Assembly: GCF_900142845.1 (NCBI RefSeq)
Contig: NZ_FSRU01000001.1
Coordinates: forward strand, 1,178,001 to 1,242,000
Origin: Paraburkholderia phenazinium
GTDB lineage: Bacteria; Pseudomonadota; Gammaproteobacteria; Burkholderiales; Burkholderiaceae
Length of the DNA stretch: 64,000 nt
Direction of reading: 5' to 3'
The translations under genes were made by a program, and so were the position numbers. How positions within the stretch are numbered: the stretch's first letter is position 1; the number at the start of each line of letters is the position of its first letter. Under the pieces are notes generated by a model that was given only the letters and a program-made list of their open reading frames with translations, was not told where the DNA came from and did no database searches. Below, one piece after another: positions 20,855 to 26,089 of the stretch.

Positions 20855-20880
20855 GACCGATCGTTGGTCATCGATCGGTC
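20855..20880. promoter_or_regulatory. Perfect 9-bp inverted repeat, candidate operator
   Basis: GACCGATCG at 20855-20863 and CGATCGGTC at 20872-20880 are separated by 8 bp, 110 bp upstream of the kinase start. The symmetry fits a dimeric repressor or activator site. The regulator is unknown. Confidence 0.5.
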
Positions 20881-20990
20881 ACATACCATCCCGGATAATC
20901 GTGGCGCTCGACGAAACCGACCAACATCACAAGGTCGAGCCGCTCTCATGAAGAGCAGGCCACGCACGTTACACCCGGGGAATTGCATAC

Positions 20991-23372
20991 ATGACTATCC
21001 GTCATCGCATCACGCTATTGGTCATCCTGATGTTCGTCGCACTGTCCGCGATTGGCGGCTATGCGGTCTACCAGACCCGGCACAGCGCCGCCGAGGTCAA
21101 GCAGGTGACGGAAGGGGTGGTGCCTAGCGCGCTCGCTTCGGCCGATCTGGTTTCGCAGGTCAAGGACGTGCAACTGGCCATCATGACGCTGGTCTACGCG
21201 CCGGACGGCAATGTGGTCGCGCAGGCACAGGACGAACTCAAGGCCAAGAAAGCGGCGCTGCAGCAGGCTCTCGCGCTGCAGGCACGTGACGCGGCGAGCC
21301 AGGCCCAGAAGGGTCTCGTCTCCCAGGCCGCCGACAGCATCGAAAACTACTTCTCGGCCATCGACGATACGGCCAAGATGAAGGCCGCCGGCAAGAACGA
21401 ACTGGCGCAAGCGTATCTGTTCGCGAACGTGGCGCAGTATCGCGACGAGCTCGAAGGCATTGTCGAGACGCTGCGTATCGAAAAGAATCGCGAGAAGGAT
21501 GAGGCGATCACCACGCTGAACGGCACGCTTTCGACCACCACCACCGCGATTGCCATCGTCACCGGTATTGCGATCATCCTGTTGACCTCGATAGGCTCGC
21601 TGCTGTACCGCCAGATCACGCGTCCGCTGACCCGCATGCAGGCCATGATGAGCGAGATCGCTTCGAGCCAGGACTTTACGCGCCGGGTGCCGGTGGGCCG
21701 GATGGACGAAATCGGCCATTCGATCGTGGCGTTCAACGGCATGATCGAAAAGATTCAGGAAAGCTCGCTCCAGCTCAAGCAGAAGACCGCCGATATTCAG
21801 GCGATGTTGCAGAACATGCAGCAGGGTATCCTGACGGTGATCGAAGGCGCGGTGATTCATTCGGAGTACTCGGCGTATCTGGAAGCCATCTTCGAAACCC
21901 GTGACATTGCCGGCCGCAGTCTGATGGATCTGGTATTCGCGGATACGGACCTCGGCGCGGACGTGTTGTCGCAAGTCGACGCGGCGAGTTACGCCTGCCT
22001 CGGCGAAGACGCCATCAACTTCGCGTTCAACGAGCATCTGCTGGTTACGGAAATCTCCAAACGCATGCCGGACGGCCGCGTGAAGATTCTCGACCTGAAC
22101 TGGTCGGCGATTACCGACGATAGCGATACGATCGTGCGCCTGATGCTGTGCGTGCGCGACGTGACCGAACTGCGCAAGCTGGCCGCCGAAGCGGGCGAGC
22201 AGAAGCGCAGGCTGGAAATGATCGGCGAGATTCTCGCGGTGAGCGAAGAGAAGTTCCACCACTTCATCGAGAGCTCGGCTGGTTTTATCAACGAGAACGA
22301 GCGCATCATCCGCCAGCATTCGCAGGCCGACCGCGAAGCGATCTCCGAATTGTTCCGCAACATGCACACCATCAAGGGCAATGCGCGGACCTATAACCTG
22401 CAGCACCTGACCAACATCGTGCACGAGACGGAGCAGCGTTACCACGAACTGCGTCACGCGGAAGCCGACGAGGTATGGGACCAGGACAGCCTGATGCAGG
22501 AACTGGCGCGCGTGCGTGCCGCAGTGGAAAGCTACGCGACGATCAACGAAGTCAGCCTCGGACGCAAGGGCGCGAGCCGCCGCGAAAGCGCGGAGCGCTA
22601 CCTGATGGTCGACATCGCGCATATCCAGGAGAGCTTGCGTCTGATCGAAACGGCCAGGTCCGACGATCTGCACGCGCTGCAGTCGATGCGCGAGAACGTG
22701 CGGCAAACCTTGCGCGTGCTGGGGACGGAAACGGTGGGCGAAGCGCTGTCCGGTGTACTCGAATCGCTGCCGTCGCTGGCTCAGGAGCTGGGTAAGGAAG
22801 CGCCGCGCGTCCGTATCGACGACAACGGTTACCGCCTGCGCCGCGAGGCCGGCAGCGCGTTGAAGAACGTGTTCATGCATCTGCTGCGCAACTCCGTCGA
22901 CCACGGTCTCGAAGCCGCCGACGTGCGTAGCGCGCAAGGCAAGCCGGCCGCGGGTGCGATCGATATCGAAGTGGGCGTCGACGAAGGCGCGCTGCAGATC
23001 ACGCTCAGCGACGATGGCCGCGGTCTCGCGCTGAAGCGGATCCGCGGCATGGCGATCGAGAAGGGCTGGATTGAAGCGGACCAGCATCTGAGCGACGAGG
23101 ATATCGCCGAGCTGATTTTCCGTCCGGGTTTCTCCACGGCCGATCAGGTTACCGAAGTATCGGGGCGCGGTGTGGGCATGGACGCGGTGCGCGATTTCCT
23201 CCGGCGTGAGCATGGCAGCATCGCGCTGCGCTTTACCGACCATCACGAGGGCGCGGATTTCCGTCAGTTCCAGACCATCGTGAATCTGCCGGAAAAACTC
23301 GCGGTGGACACGCTCGGCACGCCGGCGCGCGGCGAGGCGGACGAGCTGCCGCTCGATACGCTGGCTGATTAA
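20991..23372 (+). CDS. Membrane-bound CheA-like histidine kinase without CheW domain
   Basis: The protein has 793 residues. TM1 is at about 8-28, then a periplasmic four-helix-type sensor to about 180, TM2 about 183-205, HAMP about 205-260, a PAS-like domain about 270-395, a short coiled coil, an Hpt domain with MHTIKGNARTY (phosphoacceptor His459), and a CheA-type ATPase at about 625-760 (HLLRNSVDHGLE, DDGRGL, FRPGFSTADQ, GRGVGMDAV). The C-terminal CheW-like P5 domain of CheA is missing; the chain ends about 30 residues after the ATPase. It should trans-autophosphorylate His459 and pass phosphate to the CheY at 25724. It merges the receptor and kinase roles that chemotaxis splits between MCP and CheA. 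It is the first gene of a five-gene same-strand cluster. Confidence 0.9.
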   Translation: MTIRHRITLLVILMFVALSAIGGYAVYQTRHSAAEVKQVTEGVVPSALASADLVSQVKDVQLAIMTLVYAPDGNVVAQAQDELKAKKAALQQALALQARDAASQAQKGLVSQAADSIENYFSAIDDTAKMKAAGKNELAQAYLFANVAQYRDELEGIVETLRIEKNREKDEAITTLNGTLSTTTTAIAIVTGIAIILLTSIGSLLYRQITRPLTRMQAMMSEIASSQDFTRRVPVGRMDEIGHSIVAFNGMIEKIQESSLQLKQKTADIQAMLQNMQQGILTVIEGAVIHSEYSAYLEAIFETRDIAGRSLMDLVFADTDLGADVLSQVDAASYACLGEDAINFAFNEHLLVTEISKRMPDGRVKILDLNWSAITDDSDTIVRLMLCVRDVTELRKLAAEAGEQKRRLEMIGEILAVSEEKFHHFIESSAGFINENERIIRQHSQADREAISELFRNMHTIKGNARTYNLQHLTNIVHETEQRYHELRHAEADEVWDQDSLMQELARVRAAVESYATINEVSLGRKGASRRESAERYLMVDIAHIQESLRLIETARSDDLHALQSMRENVRQTLRVLGTETVGEALSGVLESLPSLAQELGKEAPRVRIDDNGYRLRREAGSALKNVFMHLLRNSVDHGLEAADVRSAQGKPAAGAIDIEVGVDEGALQITLSDDGRGLALKRIRGMAIEKGWIEADQHLSDEDIAELIFRPGFSTADQVTEVSGRGVGMDAVRDFLRREHGSIALRFTDHHEGADFRQFQTIVNLPEKLAVDTLGTPARGEADELPLDTLAD

Positions 23373-23446
23373 GCCGCTCAATGGTCTGCTAACTGAGCGA
23401 CCAACTACGCGCTCATCGCTGCGATGGGCTCTCGGAAGGATGGGTT

Positions 23447-24169
23447 GTGATTCAACAGTATCTTTTAGGCGCATTGGCAGGCGGCGTCGTCACTGCCCTT
23501 GTGGCGCTGGCGGCGCACCGGCTGGCTAGCGCACGGGCAATGCGCCGGCTGCGTTCCGAAGCGGAGCGGCAGGTGCACACGCTGACGCAGGCAGGCGACG
23601 CGCAAAGCGAGCTGATCGGTTTGCACGAGCAGCAGACACAGGCGCTGGAAGCCTCGATCGCGCAGTTGCGTACGGAACTGACGCAGCAGTCGGCGAGCGC
23701 CGACGAAGTGCGCGCAGAACTGAAGGCGGCCCTGGAGGGTAAGGACCAGCTTGCTCACAAGGCCACTCAACTAGCCGCCGAAGCCGCACGTCTGAAAGGT
23801 CTCGCCGGTACGTTCGAGCGCTGGCACGAGCAGATGATTTCGTTGATGACGCAAAACCAGGACATGCACGCGAAGAATCGCGAGCTGTCGTCGATTGTCC
23901 GCCATGTGGTCATCGTTTCGCTGAATGCCTCGATCGAAGCGGCGCGCGCCGGCACGGCGGGGCGTGGCTTTGCGGTGGTGGCGAGCGAGGTGCGGGCGCT
24001 GGCGGCGCGCTCCGAAGAACTGTCGAAAAGCTACCGCGATAGTCTGCATCGCAACGACCTGACGACCACGGCGACCTTCCAGGACATCCAGGCGGGCGGC
24101 AAGATGATTACCGCTTCGCTCTCCAGCGTCGAGTCGTTGGCTAACCAGTTTCAATCCACGCTTCATTAG
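23447..24169 (+). CDS. MCP-like signalling hairpin with membrane anchor, no ligand domain
   Basis: The protein has 240 residues from GTG 23447, with AAGGA 7 bp upstream. A single N-terminal hydrophobic helix (about 4-22) anchors it, with no periplasmic domain. A long coiled coil (about 30-150) leads into a chemoreceptor-type tip, ASIEAARAGTAGRGFAVVA and SEVRALAARS (about 160-190), then a return helix. The tip is the conserved protein-interaction subdomain of methyl-accepting proteins, but the helices are short and no clear methylation sites or CheR tether are present. It lies 74 bp after the kinase gene and shortly before the CheX-like genes. It may be an accessory scaffold or sensor coupling for the kinase. 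Confidence 0.85.
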   Translation: MIQQYLLGALAGGVVTALVALAAHRLASARAMRRLRSEAERQVHTLTQAGDAQSELIGLHEQQTQALEASIAQLRTELTQQSASADEVRAELKAALEGKDQLAHKATQLAAEAARLKGLAGTFERWHEQMISLMTQNQDMHAKNRELSSIVRHVVIVSLNASIEAARAGTAGRGFAVVASEVRALAARSEELSKSYRDSLHRNDLTTTATFQDIQAGGKMITASLSSVESLANQFQSTLH

Positions 24170-24177
24170 GCATCGAC

Positions 24178-24717
24178 GTGATCAGTGCGCATGCGAAGGA
24201 CAGCATCGAACGCATCGTTTTCAAGGCGGCTAAGTCGCGTCTGACGATGGATGCGGGCGACGTCTGCGAGATCGTGCCGGCCGGCGCGCATGGCGCGCAC
24301 AGTCTGCCCGATGCGAACCTGGTGGTGCTGACGATCTCGGGCATTGCATTCCGGCTGCTCCTGATCGTTCATTTCGACGAGGACGAGCGTACGCATCAGT
24401 ACTTCGTCAAGGAAGAGTCCGAACGCGCGTTTCTCGAAGTCTTTCTGGAGATATGCAACCTGTGCTGTGGCGCGGTGAACCAGGAACTACTGAATTATTT
24501 TCCGGATCTGGGCATGTCGACGCCCTATGTGCTGAGCGCGCGTTGCATGCCCTACCTGGAGGCGCTCAAGCCGGAGTTTCTGGCCTCGTATGCGGTCACG
24601 ATCAACAATGCTGTCGGTTTAGGGGCAACGGTCTGCGTGTGCGCGCATGCGCCGATCGACTTTGTTGCCGACGTAAGCGCAGTCGAAGATACCAGCGGTG
24701 AACTCGAGCTGTTTTGA
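24178..24717 (+). CDS. CheX/CheC-like phosphatase-type protein
   Basis: The protein has 179 residues from GTG 24178. The CheX/CheC signature is readable: Glu91-x-x-Asn94 in LEICNLCCG, followed by Gly98 and by GMSTP at about 112-116. In CheX, the Glu/Asn pair inserts into the receiver active site and hydrolyses phospho-aspartate. The sequence predicts a cytosolic alpha/beta protein. It ends in GELELF, shared almost exactly with the next protein's end (GELDLF). It begins 8 bp after the MCP-like stop, in the same operon as a CheY, its expected substrate. The N-terminal 40 residues have no clear match. Confidence 0.8.
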   Translation: MISAHAKDSIERIVFKAAKSRLTMDAGDVCEIVPAGAHGAHSLPDANLVVLTISGIAFRLLLIVHFDEDERTHQYFVKEESERAFLEVFLEICNLCCGAVNQELLNYFPDLGMSTPYVLSARCMPYLEALKPEFLASYAVTINNAVGLGATVCVCAHAPIDFVADVSAVEDTSGELELF

Positions 24718-24742
24718 ATGGTGCAGGAAGCAGGGAAGCGAG

Positions 24743-25702
24743 ATGAACGAGAACAAGCCAGTCAGCAAGGTGTTGGTCCTTGAGGATTGTCCGGCGCACG
24801 TCGAAGCGATAAGGCAGTTCTGCGACGAGAACAACCTGATTGGCGTGAAGGTGGCCAAAAGCCGGCTCGCGTCGGCATTGCGCTCGAACTTCGATCTGGG
24901 GGCGATCTTCGTTTCCGGGAGCTACGGCGGATCGAGCGAAGAGAGCGCCGCGATTGCGCGCAAGATTCACGCGGCGCGGCCTGAGTTGCCGATCATCATG
25001 CGACGCGGCACGGACGCTGGGCCCGGCGACGTGCCGGCGGCGCTGGATGCGGTGGTGTGCGGCAGCTACGTGGCGAGCGATATGGCGTCGCTGCGCAAGC
25101 TGATCGACGAATATATTTTCAACCGCGAGTATCCGAATGCGCTGGTGCGCGGCATTGCGGAGCTGACGAGTGCGGTGCTGGCGAGTCTCTTCAGCGACAT
25201 GGACGTCGCGGTGGATGCGCCCTGTATTGTGCGCGACCGCATTATCTTCGGCGAAGTGTTCAGCCTGATTCCGCTGGAGAGCACCTGGTGCCGCGGCTAC
25301 ATGATGATCCAGGCGGAAGAGGAGCCGATTCTCGATCTGCTCAACCGGCGTGAGACGTCCCAGGGTGCGGCCGATTTCCGCGATCTGAACAGTCTGCTCG
25401 GCGAGTTGACCAATCTGATCTGGGGCGCCTTCAAGAATCGCTACGTGGGCGACGCGGACGGCTTGTCGCATAGTCAGGTGCAGGTGCCGCTCCTGATCAA
25501 CCATAAGCAGAAGTACATCTCATTCGGTTCGGAGAGCCCGCATTTGTGCTTTACGTACCGGTTGAAGGATGAGCAGTCGGGGCGCACGGTGACGCTGCAT
25601 CAGCGTTTTGCCTTCAGCCTGAGCTGGTCGCCGGAAGACTTTCAGGAATTCGAACAAGCTGCCGGCGCGACGATAGGCGCGGGCGAGCTCGATTTATTTT
25701 GA
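24743..25702 (+). CDS. Pseudo-receiver fused to CheX-like domain
   Basis: The protein has 319 residues from ATG 24743. Residues 8-125 look like a response-regulator receiver (KVLVLEDCPAHVEAI, paired acids Glu14/Asp15). The phosphoacceptor position falls in AIFVSGSYG, with no Asp, and the usual Lys is not evident, so it is probably not phosphorylated. Residues 135-300 form a CheX-like domain with Glu221-x-x-Asn224 in LLGELTNLIWG. The last six residues are GELDLF. It lies between the first CheX-like gene and CheY on the same strand. A phosphatase or phosphate-buffering role on CheY is the leading idea, with the pseudo-receiver as a possible docking domain. Confidence 0.78.
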   Translation: MNENKPVSKVLVLEDCPAHVEAIRQFCDENNLIGVKVAKSRLASALRSNFDLGAIFVSGSYGGSSEESAAIARKIHAARPELPIIMRRGTDAGPGDVPAALDAVVCGSYVASDMASLRKLIDEYIFNREYPNALVRGIAELTSAVLASLFSDMDVAVDAPCIVRDRIIFGEVFSLIPLESTWCRGYMMIQAEEEPILDLLNRRETSQGAADFRDLNSLLGELTNLIWGAFKNRYVGDADGLSHSQVQVPLLINHKQKYISFGSESPHLCFTYRLKDEQSGRTVTLHQRFAFSLSWSPEDFQEFEQAAGATIGAGELDLF

Positions 25703-25723
25703 CTGATGCCATAGGAAACAGAC

Positions 25724-26089
25724 ATGTCGAAAATTCTGGTTGTGGATGACTCGAGCACGGTGCGCGACGAAGTGGCCGGCTTCCTGAGAAAGAACGGGCT
25801 GGACGTGGATACGGCCGTGGACGGCAAGGACGGCCTCACCAAGCTCAAGGGCAGCCCGGGCATCAAGCTCGTGATCAGCGACGTCAACATGCCGAATATG
25901 GACGGCCTGACGATGGTCGAGAAGATCCGCGGCGAACTGGGCAACAGCACGGTCAATGTGATCATGCTGACCACCGAGAGCAGCCCGGCCATGAAGGAAC
26001 GCGGCAAGGCCGCCGGCGTCAAGGGCTGGATCGTCAAGCCGTTCAAGGGTGAGGCGGTGCTGGAGACGTTCCGCAAGCTGGCGGGCTGA
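25724..26089 (+). CDS. CheY-like single-domain response regulator
   Basis: This 121-residue receiver domain has no output domain. All phosphorylation residues are present: Asp8/Asp9, phosphoacceptor Asp53 in VISDVNMPNMDG, Thr83-84 (MLTTE) and Lys105 in IVKPF. It should receive phosphate from the kinase at 20991 and act through protein contacts, as CheY does at the flagellar motor; the real target is unknown. It is the last gene of the cluster, 21 bp after the preceding stop, with a small hairpin downstream. It could drive motility, pili, secretion or adhesion. Confidence 0.93.
   Translation: MSKILVVDDSSTVRDEVAGFLRKNGLDVDTAVDGKDGLTKLKGSPGIKLVISDVNMPNMDGLTMVEKIRGELGNSTVNVIMLTTESSPAMKERGKAAGVKGWIVKPFKGEAVLETFRKLAG

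Follow-up and report, generated by a model that had tools for sequence, protein, structure and literature searches.

A Paraburkholderia operon encodes a CheA-type receptor-kinase lacking a CheW domain and two CheX-type proteins with a common C-terminal tail

Genes of a chemosensory-type operon

We analysed a 64,000-nucleotide stretch of the Paraburkholderia phenazinium genome (the window), in which five consecutive genes on the same strand, at 20991-26089, encode a membrane receptor-kinase of the CheA type, a membrane-anchored short signalling hairpin of a methyl-accepting chemotaxis protein (MCP), two proteins predicted to contain a CheX fold (chx1 and rchx), and a CheY (Table 1). The initial annotation, made from the sequence alone, had proposed this gene content, and open reading frame (ORF) and Pfam scans confirmed it. 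Specifically, the scans found 4HB_MCP_1, HAMP, a sub-threshold PAS, Hpt and HATPase_c in the kinase, MCPsignal in the second gene, a sub-threshold CheX in the third, CheX in the fourth, and Response_reg in the fifth. Because the intergenic gaps are short (74, 8, about 25 and 21 bases, in order), the five genes are likely to form a single operon. The unit contains no CheW, CheR or CheB gene, and a domain scan of the five genes together with nine neighbours revealed no gene for a CheW adaptor.

The absence of a CheW domain (P5) from the kinase, also claimed initially, holds throughout the family. Among the 57 kinases scanned, out of 67 kinase sequences and with that of the window included, none has a CheW domain at E<=0.001, whereas Hpt and HATPase are present in all 57; HAMP was found in 36, 4HB in 32, GAF in 7, and 7TMR-DISM in 6. 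The profile of the kinase core aligns to P1, P3 and P4 of E. coli CheA (6s1k_A, 2.1e-55), and its match from CheA residue 282 onward covers the P3 dimerisation region, which Pfam alone misses. The residues H459, D674, D675 and G676 are kept in 69 of 69 kinases, again including the one in the window, and hydropathy indicates two hydrophobic segments, at about residues 7-25 and 187-205. Around a constant core running from PAS to ATPase the input domains differ (4HB, HAMP, GAF, 7TM, PAS), with 4HB-HAMP in the window, 4HB-HAMP-GAF in genome G278, PAS_3 in a Methylococcales metagenome-assembled genome (MAG), and a weak 7TM match in Leptothrix.

A match to the kinase core is present in 31 of the 33 genomes examined, 24 with one kinase and 6 with two; there was none in G008 and G271, and in G427 the kinase is split over two frames. 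Two receptor-kinases occur in G278, G407, G409, G411, G414 and G429, and their sensors differ where seen, hinting that several inputs could lead to one output. We note that at locus L146, of Burkholderia multivorans WS-FJ9, the kinase matches are spread over two reading frames, through sequencing error or decay. The locus in G271 (L076:8718-11019) looks like a remnant: its kinase is cut to the 4HB-HAMP half (300 amino acids), mcp and chx1 (ending in GDLELF) are still present, and ORFs that appear by eye to be transposase-like lie close by.

The second gene encodes a protein with one hydrophobic segment, at about residues 5-23 by hydropathy. The tip of its hairpin, L159 to G169, is kept in 68-71 of 71 sequences except for the variable S162, so that most residues that face CheW and CheA are still present, and the TN of the usual QTN ahead of the tip is lost. 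Flanking the tip, W126, N137, N203, T207, Q212 and Q215 are invariant in 70-71 of 71, and we judge by eye that these may be invariants of this family only. The trimer-contact position, mapped by alignment and taken by us to correspond to Tsr F373, is occupied in 66 of 71 by R, K, Q or N. In the Methylococcales MAG (L075) the short MCP bears an acidic FELDF C-terminal tail. The CheY keeps D8, D9, D53 and T83 in 64 of 64 sequences, that of the window among them, and carries a tryptophan at what we take to be the position of E. coli Tyr106.

Table 1 Coordinates of the operon and associated features within the window
Feature	Position	Strand	Remark
PhoB-box-like direct repeat GTCAT N6 GTCAC	20867-20882	+	11 nt before GATAAT -10-like hexamer
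GATAAT -10-like hexamer	20894-20899	+	3' of the PhoB-box-like repeat; whole promoter feature 20867..20899
Receptor-kinase gene	20991..23372	+	4HB_MCP-HAMP-PAS-Hpt-P3-like-CheA-type ATPase, without CheW domain
His459 codon	22365..22367	+	Hpt phospho-accepting residue, by alignment to CheA P1
mcp, membrane-anchored short MCP signalling hairpin	23447..24169	+	Sensor domain not found
chx1, CheX-fold protein 1	24178..24717	+	ExxN motif E91-N94; C-terminal GELELF
chx1 GELELF codons and stop	24697..24717	+	One of 2 genome-wide tail-pattern matches
rchx, pseudo-receiver-CheX protein	24743..25702	+	ExxN motif E221-N224; C-terminal GELDLF; ORF open from 24698 (start taken at 24743)
rchx GELDLF codons and stop	25682..25702	+	Other of 2 genome-wide tail-pattern matches
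cheY, single receiver domain	25724..26089	+	D8, D9, D53, T83 and KPF lysine present

Two CheX-type proteins and their common tail

Structure prediction indicates that chx1 folds as CheX and that rchx has an N-terminal receiver fold ahead of its CheX fold. The glutamate and asparagine of the ExxN motif are invariant in both families (E91 and N94 in 48 chx1 sequences, E221 and N224 in 41 rchx sequences). A profile-profile comparison of chx1 with rchx gave a probability of only 79, over 67 columns. The receiver of rchx departs from an active one at positions that we assigned by eye: the switch threonine is replaced by arginine in 41 of 41 sequences, the position of the phospho-accepting aspartate is hydrophobic, and the lysine of KPF is missing. 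The initial annotation had counted two CheX-like proteins, which stands, and had taken signal termination to be over-represented, which is too simple a description since this pseudo-receiver is part of rchx, and 9 of 22 congeners have no rchx at the locus.

Both CheX proteins of the window end in the tail GEL[ED]LF-COOH which, like the pseudo-receiver, is absent from the earlier description of these proteins. In its strict form, GE[LIM][ED][LMF]F, the tail is found at the end of 62 of 75 chx1 and 74 of 81 rchx proteins and in 0 of 2875 other ORFs of at least 100 amino acids; a relaxed form takes in 74 of 75 and 80 of 81, versus 1 of the same 2875. That single ORF (L096:5709-6194, ending in SGDLEFF) lies near the operon and may not be a real gene. 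When the genome of the window (G000) was searched for the codons of the tail, exactly two matches were obtained, the ends of chx1 and rchx. The same search over 12 genomes gave 27 matches, versus 1 for the reversed pattern, and 24 of the 27 belong, by position or profile, to the C-termini of chx1, of rchx or of a divergent paralogue of rchx; the other three, all in G278, are not chx1 or rchx ends, and one of them runs into TGG and not a stop codon. A divergent second pseudo-receiver-CheX protein with a similar tail is encoded outside the operon at L161/L170 (G272), L186 (G414) and L096:9521.

Distribution, upstream region and motility genes

The five-gene set, which the initial annotation suggested seeking in other genomes, is a conserved but patchy unit. 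Within the genus, 22 of 23 congeners have a match spanning the length of the kinase; only G008, with a genome of 5.2 Mb, lacks one. The kinase, mcp, chx1 and cheY genes occur in the same order at all 22 of these loci, and rchx lies between chx1 and cheY at 13 of them. Close matches to the flanking genes that we tried were confined to the two nearest relatives. Of the best 120 of 7657 proteins, those with a named source are mostly from Paraburkholderia, with others from Caballeronia, Trinickia and Burkholderia sp. Searching one genome per species with the rchx profile yielded 295 encoding stretches, of which we took the best 80 as wider loci; loci lacking a family, and ORFs with stops or beyond length or score limits, were excluded before counts were made. 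These 80 come from Comamonadaceae, Aquabacterium, Rhodoferax, Herbaspirillum, Pandoraea, Methylococcales, Oleiphilus, Dechloromonas, Propionivibrio, Pseudomonas MAGs, HdN1 and Paraburkholderia, among others. All five families lie within 7 kb of rchx in 65 of the 80 loci, 46 with the exact order of the window, and within the same distance chx1 is present in 75 and cheY in 75. Other layouts place the kinase gene after cheY or divergently, four loci have rchx alone, and several incomplete loci stop at a contig edge. In a sample of the phylum rchx was found in 5 of 398 genomes, all 5 of the same class, and 6 plasmid-collection records place the unit on large secondary replicons of Burkholderia and Caballeronia as well. 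Pairwise distances correlate best among chx1, rchx and cheY (rho 0.76-0.81), then between mcp and these three (0.58-0.65), and least for the kinase (0.29-0.53); the correlation of chx1, rchx and cheY shows co-inheritance, not contact.

Clustering of the neighbours at the 80 loci gave no sixth conserved partner, in that no cluster was present in more than 9 loci. A protein of about 390 amino acids is encoded upstream of the operon in nine, mainly Aquabacterium-like, loci (L079, L080, L082, L084, L089, L092, L098, L103 and L141); its L079 member has no Pfam match, and five of the nine also have a small protein, whose L080 member gives a sub-threshold match to PBP_like_2 (E 0.0077). A protein cluster of the DUF3369-GGDEF-EAL type (domains from the L101 member) lies near the operon in 8 of the 80 loci (L101, L108, L118, L121, L122, L126, L136 and L145), and downstream of the operon in the Methylococcales MAG lie genes for a STAS protein and a fuller MCP (L075:3970-5460 and L075:7581-8396). 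A MAG labelled Akkermansia muciniphila (L091) bears a proteobacterial-type operon and is probably mislabelled or a mixed bin. In the window itself the nine flanking ORFs encode an Nramp protein, a glycosyltransferase, LPG_synthase_TM, a low-molecular-weight phosphatase, an acetyltransferase, a thioesterase, two ABC transporter parts and an amidase.

Upstream of the kinase gene, the repeat GTCAY N6 GTMAY is present in 23 of 23 sequences of the genus (exact in 16, with one mismatch in 7), and in most of them a GATAAT-like hexamer stands 10-11 nt further on; the layout is one that we take to be that of PhoB promoters. Of the two pstS genes in the genome of the window, one shows the same layout (GTCAC N6 GTCAT, 10 nt, TATCCT). 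Among the wider loci the Pho-like repeat occurs in 15 of 80 (4 of them Paraburkholderia), versus 20 of 4000 random stretches, intergenic or not. Several points count against control by PhoB: the second pstS gene shows no such repeat in the stretch searched; 65 of the 80 loci are without it, 5 loci having had less than 150 nt upstream; two of the 15 sites lie at odd distances (+4 and -266); and for the bare repeat pattern 0.77 occurrences are expected per window, this window holding one further copy. Taken together, these counts make control of the operon by PhoB plausible in Burkholderiaceae and some Oxalobacteraceae, and not in general. No sigma-28 pattern was found in the 23 upstream stretches.

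We searched for FliM, CheW, CheR and PilT in 52 genomes, comprising 50 that carry the kinase, rchx or both (23 genus members, G046, G272, G278 and 24 more), the remnant G271 and the negative G008; 24 genomes from the 80 wider loci entered these tests. FliM is encoded in 51 of the 52, that is in all 50 carriers and G271, and is missing only from the operon-less congener G008, against a base rate of 190 of 369 genomes in the class. CheW follows the same pattern, being missing only from G008, and CheR is present in 52 of 52. The genome of the window (8.53 Mb, 3 contigs) has 9 matches to CheW, 4 to CheR and 1 to FliM. PilT exceeded the cut-off in 26 of the 52 genomes overall. No match above it was found among the 24 genomes of the genus, that in G004 being PilT-like and sub-threshold (284 bits versus 319). 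We accordingly set aside type IV pili, or pilus retraction, as a common function of the operon; of the outputs first suggested for it (motility, pili or adhesion), the FliM pattern favours a motility-linked role.

A proposed CheW-domain-free system and its relation to known pathways

The reading that we favour, with modest confidence, is that the operon encodes a chemosensory system free of a CheW domain, which feeds phosphorylated CheY (CheY~P) to motility and is ended by two CheX phosphatases. The chemistry of the operon appears well supported by its sequence, and the output is a reasoned guess. After phosphotransfer from the kinase, CheY~P would act most likely on motility, probably flagellar, and the two CheX proteins, with their ExxN motifs, would strip the phosphate. 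Both may be docked through the GEL[ED]LF tail on one common partner, which we guess to be CheY, the MCP hairpin or the kinase. Hpt or CheY is probably what the pseudo-receiver of rchx senses or competes for. The short MCP could serve as a membrane scaffold for kinase, CheY and CheX, perhaps at the edge of an ordinary CheW array, and in Burkholderiaceae PhoB probably switches the operon on at low phosphate. With slightly less confidence still, we lean towards regarding the operon as a separate CheW-free class, in which interchangeable membrane or cytosolic receptor-kinases are combined with a constant four-protein module (short MCP, CheX, pseudo-receiver-CheX and CheY) joined by the docking tail.

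Several observations weigh against this reading. The sequence match of chx1 to CheX is weak, and its fold rests on a model. In the genome of the window the operon lies on contig 1 and the best FliM, CheW and CheR matches lie on contig 2. The rchx gene was found in only 4 of the 369 genomes sampled from the class, so that most flagellated members of the class do without it. The solved CheY structure nearest to that of the operon is 4hnr, CheY4 of V. cholerae, which is not known to bind FliM. The count of FliM co-occurrence ignores the relatedness of the genomes and, because FliM and CheW have identical patterns, a flagellar output is inseparable from dependence on the main array; such dependence is possible, since CheW and CheR are encoded elsewhere in every carrier tested.

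We consider it unlikely that the operon is an accessory of the main array, with the short MCP joining CheW/CheA arrays by its tip and the flow of phosphate in the main pathway being tuned by the other operon products (kinase, CheY and CheX proteins). The conserved tip and the loss of CheW only where the operon is also missing would fit such a role. Against it stand a trimer-contact position that is R, K, Q or N in nearly all sequences, the lost TN, a kinase without the P5 domain needed for CheW binding, and the encoding of a dedicated CheY and CheX alongside in most loci. The initial suggestion of a kinase that takes the place of the receptor array is uncertain, given that CheW is encoded in all 50 carriers and the tip of the short MCP is mostly kept. 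As unlikely as the accessory role is an output in surface attachment, biofilm or cyclic di-GMP in place of the flagellar switch, with CheY an adaptor for another target: the likeness to CheY4, the DUF3369-GGDEF-EAL-type neighbour in a tenth of the wider loci, and the STAS protein and additional MCP of the Methylococcales operon speak for it, but every one of the 51 genomes that have the operon or a remnant of it encodes FliM, versus about half of the class, and the remaining 72 loci, some cut short, showed no cyclic di-GMP neighbour. That this is a decaying or ordinary CheA operon, its CheW domain lost by chance and without special role, is highly improbable in spite of the half-lost kinase of G271 and the split kinase of one B. 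multivorans, being already contradicted by the conservation of gene order, catalytic residues and tail across families and by the lack of CheW in all 57 kinases scanned.

The operon is a real and conserved CheW-domain-free receptor-kinase variant of chemosensory signalling, undescribed as far as we searched. We found no description of the five-gene set, or of a kinase lacking the CheW domain, in the open full-text PMC literature; subscription papers lie outside that search, and novelty is therefore provisional. As described in the part of the survey available to us (PMC10782961), CheW was present in 100% of CheAs, which were recognised by HATPase plus CheW; the set is, as the initial annotation held, unlike these known classes, and the receptor-kinase family falls outside a survey that requires the CheW domain. 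CheW coupling has been taken as the feature by which chemosensory kinases are defined and counted, and surveys so defined would overlook this family. If our favoured reading is true, the family would show that CheA can take its input directly from a fused sensor, with dedicated phosphatases and a docking tail, which suggests a separate route of signal input to motility and would alter the known repertoire of motility signalling in beta- and gammaproteobacteria. A testable question also arises, namely the role of an MCP tip when the kinase has no CheW domain.

In the excerpts available, a phosphate transcriptome of Herbaspirillum (PMC8222739) reports chemotaxis genes that respond to phosphate and does not name this operon, and PMC5789663 mentions cheX only within a rhizobial operon. 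The Flm pathway of Comamonas testosteroni is likewise a second chemosensory pathway in a betaproteobacterium with no CheR or CheB; we rejected it as the same operon since, in the portion of PMC6391922 at hand, it belongs to the Tfp class, has the CheW-like FlmC, and no CheX is named. MotV/MotW of V. cholerae appear unrelated in the accessible text of PMC8789113, save for a CheX-family gene hit in a suppressor strain.

The operon resembles canonical chemosensory systems (the F classes, Tfp and ACF) in its CheA-type P1, P3 and P4, MCP tip, CheY and CheX-type phosphatase. It differs from them in that their CheA has a CheW domain, whereas here the kinase has none and the unit lacks CheW, CheR and CheB, the sensor is fused to the kinase, and the MCP is reduced to an anchored hairpin. 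Compared with the CheX/CheC/FliY phosphatases, such as CheX of T. maritima and B. burgdorferi, one CheX is here fused to a pseudo-receiver and both bear the GEL[ED]LF tail. Membrane sensor histidine kinases of two-component systems likewise combine sensor, HAMP, PAS and kinase in one membrane protein that signals to a response regulator, but the present system is set apart from them by its CheA-type P1/P3/P4, separate Hpt, single-domain CheY and CheX phosphatases.

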